From Clostridia bacterium (lineage in GTDB: Bacteria; Bacillota; Clostridia; Oscillospirales; CAG-382), in contig JAFQHW010000032.1 in NCBI GenBank assembly GCA_017397805.1, forward strand, positions 1 through 35,471: DNA of 35,471 nucleotides. Direction: 5' to 3'. The notes under the pieces are model-generated. The model made no database searches. It saw nothing but the letters and a program-made list of their open reading frames with translations, and had not been told where the DNA came from. Positions 7,378 to 35,471 of this stretch are shown here, piece by piece. The translations under genes were made by a program, and so were the position numbers. Numbering within the stretch: the first letter of the stretch is position 1; each line of letters starts with the position of its first letter.

Positions 7378-7417
7378 AGGCTGTATTGAATGCGGTATCT
7401 TGCATTCAATACAGCCT
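7378..7417 (+). terminator. Large hairpin after dnaJ, 5' border of repeat A1
   Basis: A perfect 16-bp stem: AGGCTGTATTGAATGC (7378-7393) and its complement (7402-7417) with an eight-base loop, 18 bases after the dnaJ stop. It lacks a U-run, so it may act as a 3'-end stabiliser or transcription pause. It directly abuts the family A repeat. Confidence 0.5.
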
Positions 7418-7643
7418 CAAGCTGATGACAAAGTTTGTCATCAGCTTGGCAGAGTACCGAGAAAGAGCGCAGACAAGACGAACCGAGGCGAGAACTGTAC
7501 TTTGTACTGTGAGCCGAGGTTCGTTTTGAACGAAAAAATATAACAAAATGCAGAAAAATAAGGAGGCTCGCCTCCTTATTTTTCTTCTTCATTATGTTTG
7601 TTTGTTTTCTTTTTCGTGCTCTGTGCCTTTGTCAGTGGTCTGA
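7417..7643 (+). repeat. Family A structured repeat, copy A1
   Basis: About 227 bp, repeated at 10962-11228 (minus) and 20429-20657, with a remnant at 35240-35303. Modules in order: an almost perfect palindrome AAGCTGATGACAAA/TTTGTCATCAGCTT (7419-7447); the block GGCAGAG...GAAAGAGCGCAGAC; a long stem ACGAACC...GGTTCGT enclosing a GTAC hairpin; TTCGTT/AACGAA; a strong hairpin AAAAATAAGGAGGC/GCCTCCTTATTTTT (7554-7583); and a T-rich tail ending GTCAGTGGTCTGA. Ends are weakly inverted (TCA..TGAC against GTCA..TGA). No open reading frame is conserved among copies. It lies in the same orientation as the gene before it. Confidence 0.85.
7554..7588 (+). terminator. Terminator-like hairpin inside A1
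   Basis: A 14-bp perfect stem with a two-base loop and T-rich 3' side (TTATTTTTCTTCTTC). It has intrinsic-terminator form and could end the dnaK-dnaJ transcript. The mirrored A-run allows function in both directions. Confidence 0.6.
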
Positions 7644-10949: not shown

Positions 10950-10961
10950 TTTTAGGGTGGA

Positions 10962-11228
10962 TCAGACCACTGACAAAGGCACAGAACACGAAAAAAAGAA
11001 AGAATACTACTATTTAAAGGTAGAAAATTCAGGGGAAATCCCTGAATTTTCTACTTTTTATTATAGTTTTTCGTTCAAAACGAACCTCGGCTCACAGTAC
11101 AGAGGTACAGTTCTCGCCTCGGTTCGTCCCGCGGGGTCCCCGTTGCGAACGAAGTGAGCAATGGGGTGGTGTGAGCACTCTTTCTCAGCACTCTGCCAAG
11201 TTGATGACAAGGTTTGTCATCAACTTGA
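10962..11228 (-). repeat. Family A structured repeat, copy A3 (with internal insertion)
   Basis: Reads on the minus strand, that is, in the orientation of the PLP-enzyme gene ending at 11257. The first palindrome has the compensated change AAGTTGATGAC/GTCATCAACTT (A1 and A2 have AAGCTG/CAGCTT). The GAAAGAG block is followed by about 50 foreign bases (about 11111-11160, GC-rich), then the usual ACGAACC/GGTTCGT stem, a different variable hairpin (GTAGAAAATTCAGGG and complement, 11020-11054), and the conserved tail ending GTCAGTGGTCTGA. The longer total (267 bp) is explained by the insertion. Confidence 0.82.
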
Positions 11229-11256
11229 TCCACCCTTTTAGGGTGGATATTTTTAT
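11227..11256 (+). terminator. Intact terminator hairpin reading rightwards
   Basis: ATCCACCC pairs with GGGTGGAT around TTTT-A, followed by ATTTTTATTTATTT. The U-run is on the plus strand, so it fits the rightward ackA transcript. It also lies directly after the stop codon of the convergent PLP-enzyme gene. The same arms occur, split, at 10621-10635 and 10950-10962. Confidence 0.7.
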
Positions 11257-15185: not shown

Positions 15186-15584
15186 CTAAAAAACATTTTC
15201 TGTATGGGTAAGCCGTTTAACGCCTTGCTCGTCTGCGATAAGCTCTATAACGTCAAAACGGCGTTTTTTGTATTTGCGCGTATAACGCAGTTTGCCTAAG
15301 TAAAAGGGAACTTTGCCCTTGGCACCGTCAATTTTGCAAAACTCATAGGCGGCGCTTTTAAGGTGGCTTATTTTTTGCCTGCCCACACTGTCCGAGGGCA
15401 GACCGTATTTCAAGTCGCGTCTTGCCTTGACTTCGACGAACACCAAGACACCGCGCCTTAATGCTATTATATCCAATTCTCCGTGTCGGGTGTTATAATT
15501 CATCCCGACTATTTTGTATTTCTTTTCCTTCAGATAGGCAAGTGCCGCATCCTCACCAATTCTGCCAAATATCTTGTTGTTCAA
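15186..15584 (-). CDS. UPF0102 family protein YraN (nuclease-like)
   Basis: A 132-residue member of the YraN/UPF0102 family, which has a Holliday-junction-resolvase-like PD-(D/E)xK fold. The core is visible as GELDIIA (Glu36, Asp38) and FVEVKAR (Glu51, Lys53), preceded by the GEDAALAYL helix. Biological substrate is not established. It starts at TTG 15584, with AGGGGACA just upstream. The start lies inside the end of rnhB, giving a 32-base overlap, so coupling is likely. The rnhB-yraN neighbourhood is widely conserved in Firmicutes. Confidence 0.88.
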   Translation of the reverse strand: MNNKIFGRIGEDAALAYLKEKKYKIVGMNYNTRHGELDIIALRRGVLVFVEVKARRDLKYGLPSDSVGRQKISHLKSAAYEFCKIDGAKGKVPFYLGKLRYTRKYKKRRFDVIELIADEQGVKRLTHTENVF

Positions 15585-16188
15585 TACTGTCCCCTAAAGT
15601 CTTTCTCAAAAAGCTTTTTCTGTGCAAGGGGCAGGGACCTAATTTAAGGATTGCCGCCTTGTGCGCCTTGGTAGCATATCCCTTGTGCTTGGCAAAGCCG
15701 TAGCCGGGATAAAACTTGTCCATCTCCAAACAGAAATTATCCCTTTCCACCTTGGCTAAAATAGATGCCGCCGCGATGGACGGACTTTTTCCGTCCCCTT
15801 TTATAACGGGAACCGCTTTTATGTGGAAATCCCTTGCCACGTTCCCGTCGATAAGCGCAAGCTCAGGCACCGTTTTAAGCTTTTCGATAGCGCGCCGCAT
15901 AGCAAGCATGGACGCGTTCAGGATATTGATGGCTTCTATCTCATAGACCTCTGCGTGGGCAACGGCATAGTCCAACGCAACCTCTTTTATTTTAAGGCAC
16001 AGCTCGTTGCGCTTGACCTCGCTAAGCTTTTTGGAGTCGTTAAGACCTTCTATCTCACAACCCTTGGGCAAGATTACCGCCGCCGCAAACACGGGGCCCG
16101 CCAAAGGACCTCTGCCCGCCTCGTCACAACCGCAAAGCACCTTAATACCTTCGCTGAAATAACCGTTTTCTATATCCCAATTCAGCAT
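15553..16188 (-). CDS. rnhB: Ribonuclease HII
   Basis: A 211-residue endonuclease that nicks RNA in RNA-DNA hybrids and removes misincorporated ribonucleotides. The metal-binding DEAGRG is at residues 22-27, the LNDSKKLSEVKR block at about 49-60, then LIDGN with a further acidic residue, and AAASILAKVERD. I start at ATG 16188 because AGGAGG lies six bases upstream and the family N-terminus is reached at once; longer in-frame starts would run into element D. Element D (297 bp) separates it from ylqF, so its expression may depend on read-through of that structured RNA. Confidence 0.95.
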   Translation of the reverse strand: MLNWDIENGYFSEGIKVLCGCDEAGRGPLAGPVFAAAVILPKGCEIEGLNDSKKLSEVKRNELCLKIKEVALDYAVAHAEVYEIEAINILNASMLAMRRAIEKLKTVPELALIDGNVARDFHIKAVPVIKGDGKSPSIAAASILAKVERDNFCLEMDKFYPGYGFAKHKGYATKAHKAAILKLGPCPLHRKSFLRKTLGDSIEQQDIWQNW

Positions 16189-16199
16189 AAGAAGCCTCC

Positions 16200-16496
16200 T
16201 TAGCCAAAGCATTATAATCCGAATCCGCTTTTCACGGGCGGATTTCCGCCGCTGCGGTGTCAAAATGCTCGTGAATACGGAAGTATTCACTCCGCTTTTT
16301 CCTTGTATCAACAAAATCTGCCACCTGAAAAGTCTAAAGACCCAAAAGGAGCTGAATTTTGAGGAAATTTCGATAGCGTAGCGGTTTGAGAACGAAGCAA
16401 TACTTTCCGTATTGCAAGGTCGAAAAATCAAAATTTGCCGAAAAGCACTGCGGTTCAGCCCTTTTGGGCCGGTTCGGGTTGCAATGCTTTGGCTAA
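16200..16496. mobile_element. Element D: MITE-like insertion with 14-bp perfect terminal inverted repeats
   Basis: TTAGCCAAAGCATT (16200-16213) and its exact complement (16483-16496) bound 297 bp with no gene. The inverted similarity extends to about 29 bases with five differences, three of which are G-U compatible on one strand. Both ends are flanked by TCC, a possible 3-bp target duplication. Inside are the hairpins GTGAATAC/GTATTCAC (16271-16290) and GCAATAC/GTATTGC (16397-16415). The ylqF stop codon lies within the right terminal repeat, and the rnhB ribosome site AGGAGG abuts the left one. It therefore sits exactly in an operon junction without damaging either gene. Confidence 0.75.
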
Positions 16497-17338
16497 TCCA
16501 AAGTCATCCTGCCTATCTTACCTGCTCTGTATTCATCTAAAAGACAAGCGGCAAAACGCTCGGTATCCGCAACACCGCCGCGCTGTAAAAAGCCGCGCTT
16601 TCTTGCCATGCGCTCAAGCAGTTCTTCTTTAAGCTCGCCCTCTATCGGTGCAACCTTGTATCTTTGCTCCGTAAGTGCGGGATATTTTTCCAAAAGAAGC
16701 ACCGCAAGCTTGGCACCCAAATCGGTTATATCCAATATATCGTCTTTTATCGCGCCGGTAAACGCCAACTTTTCACCAACGCTCTGGTCTTCAAATTTAT
16801 GCCATAGCAGACCGGGGGTATCAAGCAGTTCGATTCCGCCGGGTGCGCTTATCCACTGGGTAGTGCGGGTAACACCGGGTCTGTCCTCTGCTTTTGCCTT
16901 GGAGGTGCCCGTAAAGCGGTTGATAAACGTGCTTTTGCCCACGTTGGTTATGCCAAGCACCATACCGCGTATTTTCCGCCCCGACATACCCTTATCCGCA
17001 TAACGTTTAAGCTTTTCACTGCACAGCTCTTTTATGGTGGCGGCTATGGCGTTATAGCCCGCGCCGCTTTTACTGTCTATGGCGATTACCCTTGCGCCTT
17101 CGCTTTCGATAAGCCTTTTAAAGTGGGCGGTACGGTTAGGGTCCGCCAAAGAGGTTTTGGTAAGCAAAGTAAGCCTTGGCTTATCTTTGCATATCTCTTT
17201 TAAATCGGGGTTTCTGCTGGACATGGGTATGCGTGCATCCAACAGCTCCACCACAAAATCCGCCGGCACTATACTGTTTATTATGGCGCGCTTTGCCGCC
17301 GCCATGTGCCCCGGATACCAAACTATAGCTTCACTCAT
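16493..17338 (-). CDS. ylqF: Ribosome biogenesis GTPase YlqF/RbgA
   Basis: A 281-residue circularly permuted GTPase needed for late 50S assembly in Firmicutes. The N-terminal VWYPGHMAAAKR matches the family. Motif order is permuted: G4 first (TKTSLAD, residues 60-66), G5 (DSKSGAG, 88-94), then G1 (GITNVGKST, 129-137), G2 (PGVTR, 154-158) and G3 (DTPG, 173-176); a C-terminal helical RNA-binding domain follows. The G4 motif, usually NKxD, reads TKTS here, losing the base-specifying Asp. The start overlaps the lepB stop by four bases. The stop codon lies within the terminal repeat of element D. Confidence 0.95.
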   Translation of the reverse strand: MSEAIVWYPGHMAAAKRAIINSIVPADFVVELLDARIPMSSRNPDLKEICKDKPRLTLLTKTSLADPNRTAHFKRLIESEGARVIAIDSKSGAGYNAIAATIKELCSEKLKRYADKGMSGRKIRGMVLGITNVGKSTFINRFTGTSKAKAEDRPGVTRTTQWISAPGGIELLDTPGLLWHKFEDQSVGEKLAFTGAIKDDILDITDLGAKLAVLLLEKYPALTEQRYKVAPIEGELKEELLERMARKRGFLQRGGVADTERFAACLLDEYRAGKIGRMTLD

Positions 17339-20408: not shown

Positions 20409-20429
20409 ACCCGCCTGAAAGGGCGGGTT
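20409..20429 (+). terminator. Terminator hairpin, upstream copy (border of A2)
   Basis: Arms ACCCGCC and GGGCGGGT with a short TGAAA loop, 14 bases after the cyclophilin stop. The 21-base unit recurs exactly at 20659-20679, where it is followed by TTTTTT. Here the U-run has been replaced by the start of repeat A2, so this copy has probably lost strong termination. Confidence 0.7.
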
Positions 20430-20657
20430 CAAGCTGATGACAAATTTTGTCATCAGCTTGGCAGAGTGCTGAGAAAGAGCGCAGACAAGACGAACCGAGG
20501 CGATAGCTGTACATCTGTACTGTGAGCCGAGGTTCGTTTTGAACGAAAAAATATAACAAAATACAGAAAAATAAGGAGGTTCGTCCTCCTTATTTTTCTA
20601 CTTCATTGTATTTGTTTGTTTTCTTTTTCGTGCTCTGTGCCTTTGTCAGTGGTCTGA
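20429..20657 (+). repeat. Family A structured repeat, copy A2
   Basis: 229 bp, closely matching A1 module by module: palindrome AAGCTGATGACAAA with its complement (20431-20459), GAAAGAGCGCAGAC, ACGAACC/GGTTCGT stem, the variable-position hairpin AAAAATAAGGAGG/CCTCCTTATTTTT (20567-20597) and the tail ending GTCAGTGGTCTGA. Differences from A1 cluster in hairpin loops. It lies in the orientation of the preceding gene and is flanked by two exact copies of the gene's terminator hairpin. Confidence 0.87.
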
Positions 20658-20658
20658 T

Positions 20659-32269: not shown

Positions 32270-32279
32270 AAAGAATATG

Positions 32280-32419
32280 GGTCTGTCTCAAATTGAAATT
32301 TTGAGATGAAACCATATATAAAAGCTACAAAAAAATCAAGGGCATTCAAGCGATGTCCTTGATTTTTTGTTAAGCTTGCACATAACGTTCACAATTTGTT
32401 AATGCTATGAGACAGCCTC
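32280..32419. mobile_element. Family B element, copy B1 (MITE-like)
   Basis: The core 32283-32417 (135 bp) is identical base for base to 35336-35470. It is bounded by inverted CTGTCTCA/TGAGACAG, extending to GGGCTGTCTCA in copy B2. No gene inside. It holds TCTCAAA/TTTGAGA near the left end and a strong hairpin AAAAAATCAAGG/CCTTGATTTTTT in the centre. The ends resemble those of some Firmicutes insertion sequences, suggesting mobilisation by a transposase encoded elsewhere. Confidence 0.8.
32330..32368. terminator. Bidirectional terminator-like hairpin inside B1
   Basis: A 12-bp arm pair AAAAAATCAAGG/CCTTGATTTTTT, extended inwards by CAT/ATG pairing, gives a T-run on both strands. It could end both the rightward transporter transcript and the leftward PHP gene, whose 3' end is at 32465. 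Confidence 0.7.
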
Positions 32420-35196: not shown

Positions 35197-35243
35197 GGGG
35201 CTGTCTCAAATGCAAGGATTGAGCATTTGAGACAGCCCCTTTT
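35197..35243 (+). terminator. Terminator made from family B end sequence
   Basis: A perfect 17-bp stem whose 5' arm begins GGGGCTGTCTCAAAT, the left end of family B, and whose 3' arm is the exact complement; it is followed by TTTTCTTCTTC. It lies 22 bases after the preceding stop codon and is a good intrinsic terminator. Confidence 0.8.
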
Positions 35244-35303
35244 CTTCTTCATTATATTTGTTTGTTTTCTTTTTCGCGCTCCGTGCCTTTGTCCGTGGTC
35301 TGA
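35240..35303 (+). repeat. Family A remnant, copy A4
   Basis: Only the 3' tail of family A remains: CTTCTTCATTAT, the T-rich stretch, CGCGCTCCGTGCC and GTCCGTGGTCTGA. It joins the upstream hairpin at the T-run where A1 and A2 have their variable hairpin, and it is followed by another hairpin (35302-35329). Same orientation as the preceding gene. Confidence 0.75.
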
Positions 35304-35329: not shown

Positions 35330-35332
35330 AAG

Positions 35333-35471
35333 GGGCTGTCTCAAATTGAAATTTTGAGATGAAACCATATATAAAAGCTACAAAAAAATCAAGGGCATTC
35401 AAGCGATGTCCTTGATTTTTTGTTAAGCTTGCACATAACGTTCACAATTTGTTAATGCTATGAGACAGCCC
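35333..35471. mobile_element. Family B element, copy B2 (reaches the window end)
   Basis: The 135-bp core is identical to B1. Terminal inverted repeats are GGGCTGTCTCA and TGAGACAGCCC (11 bp, perfect). Same orientation as B1. The central terminator-like hairpin lies at 35383-35421. The element ends at the last base of the window, so its right flank and any target duplication cannot be seen. Confidence 0.8.

Follow-up and report, generated by a model that had tools for sequence, protein, structure and literature searches.

The stretch of DNA analysed here (the window, 35,471 nucleotides) is contig C20 of a 1.72 Mb draft genome of a Clostridia bacterium (G000; 77 contigs), and between its ylqF and rnhB genes it carries a 297-bp repeat, element D (16200-16496, minus strand). 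Element D is very probably a lineage-specific insertion of a small, non-autonomous element of the miniature inverted-repeat transposable element (MITE) type, which targets the dinucleotide TA and duplicates it. Its body (16203-16493) is flanked by two TA, presumed to be the target duplication by analogy with the empty site of another copy (G034:C55), one on the rnhB side (16201-16202) and one on the ylqF side (16494-16495), where it forms bases 1-2 of the ylqF stop codon. A reading from the sequence alone (the sequence-only reading) had described a 297-bp element with terminal inverted repeats of 14 perfect bp within 29 imperfect nt, and this is confirmed: the perfect outer 14 bp (TTAGCCAAAGCATT / AATGCTTTGGCTAA) lie at 16200-16213 and 16483-16496, and the arms extend imperfectly to 16228 and from 16468, being 83% complementary over 29 nt.

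Empty sites, copies elsewhere and target duplication

The ylqF-rnhB junction is short and lacks the element in all six other genomes of the same genus, whose YlqF proteins are 63-92% identical to that of the window; the C-terminus (...LD-stop) is the same in 7/7 genus genomes. Because these junctions are empty and copies occur elsewhere, element D is an insertion and native DNA is excluded. Five further full-length-type copies, 72-94% identical to element D, were found at other sites in four other genomes: G034:C55 (94%), G036:C25 (92%), G009 (78%), G034:C10 (76%, 256 bp) and G013 (72%). The sequence-only reading had proposed a MITE-like mobile element, which the six empty sites, the other copies and the TA duplication described below support. 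It had also named, as the pattern of a native regulatory RNA, conservation at this site in all relatives with no copies elsewhere; what was found is the reverse on both counts. That element D is a native riboregulator of the operon and not a mobile element is thus refuted to near certainty: the stable, conserved fold with paired changes speaks for it, whereas the junction is empty in 6/6 relatives, the copies occupy unrelated sites, and Rfam models gave 0 matches at E up to 1 on 16000-16700. A phage or plasmid origin of element D was also rejected, with no match.

The copy G034:C55 sits in the leader of a gene, read from its sequence as a MATE-type transporter, whose product is 97% identical in G036. 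The filled site in G034 reads AAATCCC-TA-element-TA-CGCCCACGGGAGG and the empty site in G036 reads AAATTTC-TA-AGCCTACGGGAGG; at the level of sequence comparison, this pair demonstrates that a full element duplicates TA on insertion and, with the empty junctions, that the family is mobile. A 46-bp palindrome before dnaE (C8:8225-8270) likewise has TA at both ends and is missing in 6/6 relatives.

The position of element D between its neighbours is as the sequence-only reading had stated. In the minus-strand order, the final ylqF codon is followed by the stop TAG (16495-16493), which falls within the right repeat, then by the element and by the rnhB GGAGG (16199-16195), which lies directly against the left repeat. 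If the TA is a target duplication as at the other copy, the ylqF stop would consist of the target TA and the G of the element. By the same rule, the site before insertion is inferred to have been GGAT-TA-AGGAGG, a stop codon overlapping the ribosome site. A stop codon overlapping a ribosome site (TTAAGGAGG) is also the target at rnfA-rnfB (see below), so that two insertions, the one at ylqF-rnhB by inference, would share the same type of site.

In the favoured explanation, a gene-less element, which must have been moved in trans by a transposase (no such partner was found in the searches made), landed on a TA lying between the stop of ylqF and the ribosome site of rnhB. The insertion restores the stop codon as TA plus G and leaves the GGAGG intact, and so it was tolerated. 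The fold would be kept for the element itself, in transposition, and not for the operon. Several points weigh against this explanation. The genome is a draft only 89% complete, in 77 contigs. In the relatives, the ylqF-rnhB junction carries some 9 or more further bases, and therefore the TA duplication is not read directly at this site. The one transposase family searched, DDE_3 (PF13358, IS630-type), occurs in 0/7 genus genomes, against 3/14 control genomes. Among the matches listed, those of G037, G038 and G039 left aside, there was no inverted pair of ends (TAGCCAAAG-type, at most one mismatch) at the spacing of a transposase gene.

The family of element D is small, non-autonomous and of the MITE type; its hosts are ruminant-gut Clostridia, and it was seen only in close relatives. 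Among 63 genomes of the bacterial family, the own genome included, a search with element D matched 8 and one with the more distant G009 copy matched 10. A 22-base degenerate end pattern was scanned on one genome per species (84,980 species, the own genome perhaps not among them) and gave 18 stretches, 12 of which are metagenome-assembled genomes of this bacterial family from the ruminant gut (SIG636, RGIG1823, RGIG1907, RGIG4136, RGIG6501). The other six stretches, outside the family, were taken for chance matches on the strength of the surroundings of four of them (L066, L067, L075 and L083, not L072 and L073) and of one IMG/VR match (L084); all five of these inspected loci are single end matches without the rest of the element. 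As a side observation, a short variant at G015:C60 (L087, about 1490-1555) carries the same core between the outer repeats TAGTCCG/CGGACTA, which hints that related families with different ends exist.

The copies share no reading frame and are set apart by an 11-column gap and single-base gaps. By an open reading frame script, 18 of 26 examined copies overlap no called frame by more than 20 bases; the remaining eight overlap upstream-extended starts, frames of less than 75 codons or, in the case of the G006:C27 half, the last 30 bases of one 214-codon frame. Given the nature of these overlaps, all 26 copies were taken, in our reading, as lying between main genes, which fits the earlier suggestion of a clean junction at a tolerated site. 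In the window, a mobile element has been tolerated in the short space that separates a stop codon from a ribosome site in a conserved gene row, a clean natural case for which sister species provide both filled and empty sites.

That row, by Pfam, consists of ribosomal protein L19, signal peptidase, ylqF, rnhB, UPF0102 (yraN) and threonine synthase (thrC), in the order rplS-lepB-ylqF-rnhB-yraN-thrC. The ylqF gene (16493-17338, minus strand; Pfam 50S-binding GTPase) encodes a ribosome biogenesis GTPase and has its stop codon in the element end. Ribonuclease HII is encoded by rnhB (15553-16188, minus strand; Pfam RNase HII), with its start at 16188 and a ribosome site (16195-16199) that touches the element.

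The fold of the element and its bearing on the operon

The ability of the element to fold on itself, noted in the sequence-only reading, is borne out for the minus strand across 16193-16500 by its predicted energy (-114.7 kcal/mol, z = -6.5), which 0/100 shuffles equalled. RNAalifold on five full copies, G034:C10 being left out for its deletion, gave a conserved Y made of an outer stem and two arms, each with an invariant tip hairpin of 7-8 bp. In the window, the hairpin of the right-end arm (GCAATAC-loop-GTATTGC) lies at 16397-16415 and that of the left-end arm (GTGAATAC-loop-GTATTCAC) at 16271-16290, both on the minus strand. In the five-copy Y, 96.7% of cells pair, and 14 of 103 pairs show changes on both sides, against 6.5 in shuffles (reached by 0/500) and at most 4 when the partners are slid by 1-3 columns; this count is favoured both by the derivation of the Y from the same alignment and by the relatedness of the five sequences. 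Copying between the arms by foldback could be another source of the paired changes.

The RNA fold energies of the two strands are alike, with three of six copies better on each strand, and therefore nothing points to a strand-specific RNA, a possibility that was set aside on this comparison. In our reading, the predicted fold belongs to the DNA element and does not signal an RNA made from one strand.

In prediction, the rnhB GGAGG is as open in the presence of the element as when the flanks are joined (0.29 in both cases; 0.61 in G034 and 0.18 in G036), so that there are no predicted grounds for a block, and the effect of element D on the operon is probably small. With ylqF and rnhB now about 300 bases apart, their translational coupling may be lost, and nuclease cutting of the stems would also be possible. 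For the altered rnhB-yraN-thrC expression by processing or partial termination that the sequence-only reading had suggested, the analysis gave no evidence in either direction. A more specific role, in which the element has been co-opted and its folded RNA is cut by RNase III or another nuclease, or terminates some transcripts, setting the mRNA ratio of ylqF to rnhB-yraN-thrC, appears improbable. The very stable fold, with perfect helices of 14, 13 and 11 bp, would suit such a role, and passages of PMC10969869 and PMC3049150 report that transcript-borne Correia, ERIC and BIME repeats alter mRNA. However, the element stands at ylqF-rnhB in only 1/7 genus genomes, its fold is about equally good on both strands, it leaves predicted access to the ribosome site unchanged, and no U-tract follows its outer stem.

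The element was also rejected as a terminator and as a promoter. A scan of 501 bases gave three terminator-like sites against 0.7 expected, two of them on the operon strand; one of these two lies within ylqF, and the only one inside the element has a weak tail. One weak promoter-like site was found against 0.4 expected. Near the left end, TATAAT occurs in the G000 copies C20, C4 and C58, and TACAAT in the G034:C55 and G036 copies; by eye, there is no good hexamer upstream of the TATAAT.

Half-elements and palindromes

The own genome has one full copy and no second one, together with five partial or short ones: a right half (C61), three left halves (C31, C4 and C58) and the 46-bp palindrome on C8. 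G034 has several short copies besides its two full-length-type ones. Twelve fragments were mapped to the element. Ten of them retain a single outer end and are broken once inside; for 6 of these 10, the break lies within the 4-5 base loop of an arm tip or at its edge. The inner end of the right halves is thus the loop of the right-end arm (C61, G034:C18) and that of the left halves is the loop of the left-end arm (C31, C4, C58, G006:C27); four fragments break elsewhere (G034:C26, G008:C64, G038:C165, G035:C74). The weak match G018:C93, without an outer end, likewise stops at a loop, and G034:C57, which runs off its contig, consists of a left half and a right half that meet near the loop. By our own arithmetic, 6 of 10 breaks within about 12 of some 240 positions would have p ~3e-6 if breaks were even, a figure behind which there may be as few as two independent events, as the halves may descend from one another. 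The half-element evidence consists of draft metagenome assemblies, without reads.

Two explanations of the halves were weighed. The somewhat favoured one is that they are mere decay products of full insertions, left by a deletion from the arm loop past the end, and not separately mobile. In its favour, four of the six halves (C4, C58, G034:C18, G006:C27) have no TA at the inner end, hairpin loops would be natural break points, and PMC3116915 accounts for REP singlets as what remains of doublets. The C58 half lies downstream of nadE, and the region beyond it is not conserved in relatives.

The evidence on the other side comes from two halves of the own genome. The sequence at rnfA-rnfB is GAGTTAA-GTATTGC...GGCTAAGGAGG in the own genome and GGGTTAAGGAGG in G034 and G036; the half is missing in 3/3 relatives having the gene. 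Judged by these sequences, the right half on C61 has inserted cleanly, with a repeat of TA or TTA. It fills a stop codon-ribosome site that, apart from the half, is alike in G034 and G036, and the bases at its inner end (TTA...) are unlike the leftover of a deletion ending at the TA duplication. The same frame is seen again at the C31 half upstream of gpsA (TTA-GCC...GAATAC-TTAA), which is missing in 5/5 relatives having the gene, at a diverged junction; an ABC-transporter frame upstream enters this half for a few codons and then stops.

These halves raise the rather unlikely alternative of a nested mobile element, in which the arm-tip loops and an inner copy of the terminal repeat (at the right end) would serve as alternative transposition ends, and both the halves (about 78-88 bp) and the palindromes (46-59 bp) would move alone into TA or TTA. 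Four 59-bp palindromes in G034 resemble the right end plus an inner inverted copy of the terminal repeat. Such an inner copy is reached by 0-3/500 shuffles in four of six full copies, and by 39 and 52/500 in the other two, that of the window included. If the nested reading were true, the conserved Y fold would be a substrate presenting these alternative ends. The loop-ended halves could make the loss and gain of ends by MITEs directly testable.

Separately, the left halves on C58 (L010, about 960-1070) and C4 (L009, about 1015-1130) of the own genome lie between the arms of local inverted repeats (AACCCAC/GTGGGTT; CTTTCGG/CCGAAAG), perhaps terminator loops.

Known repeat systems and other repeats of the window

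No description of the element D family or of MITE half-elements was found in literature searches covering open-licence papers. The family is new and its kind, a TA-flanked foldback MITE, is known; the half-elements are the point deserving the attention of specialists. Insertion of REPIN/REP sequences is carried out by an IS200-type enzyme, without target duplication. REPINs are tied to RAYT (IS200/IS605-related) enzymes, whereas the element D family shows TA duplication, and REPIN/REP membership was rejected on that ground. The likeness lies in the form described in parts of PMC3116915, a palindrome doublet with compensatory changes, plus singlets.

As far as passages of PMC2229807 describe them, Correia/NEMIS, ERIC and RUP are, like element D, short and gene-less, with terminal inverted repeats, TA ends and TA duplication, whole-element foldback and mostly intergenic positions. 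Element D differs from them in its greater length (297 bp), its two-armed Y and its host group. RUP is an IS630-driven MITE, and an IS630-type transposase was not found in the seven genus genomes. The Chunjie MITE of Geobacter uraniireducens, according to sections of PMC10969869, also has partial copies and gives a precedent for MITE insertion in an operon; its host is unrelated and the likeness is one of description. The BOX repeat of pneumococcus, as outlined in part of PMC3049150, is modular, with outer modules that pair and lone modules that occur, and affects operons. BOX varies in the number of middle modules, whereas the forms of element D are full elements, halves and palindromes of 46-59 bp.

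Other repeats were observed in the window. A second family of about 230-290 bp is present at 10961-11246, 20429-20658 and 35231-35303, with a related copy at 7417-7643. Three of the four are flanked by 15-21 bp direct repeats, themselves part of a local terminator-like hairpin (for example, 20429-20658 has ACCCGCCTGAAAGGGCGGGTT on either flank); the arrangement looks like that of a family inserting into terminators and duplicating them. No such direct repeat was found around 7417-7643. A 139-bp repeat, 99% identical between 32279-32417 and 35332-35470, has GTCTGTCTCAAATT / GGCTGTCTCAAATT at one end and GAGACAGCC at the other, and its copy at 35332-35470 adjoins a copy of the terminator-type family.
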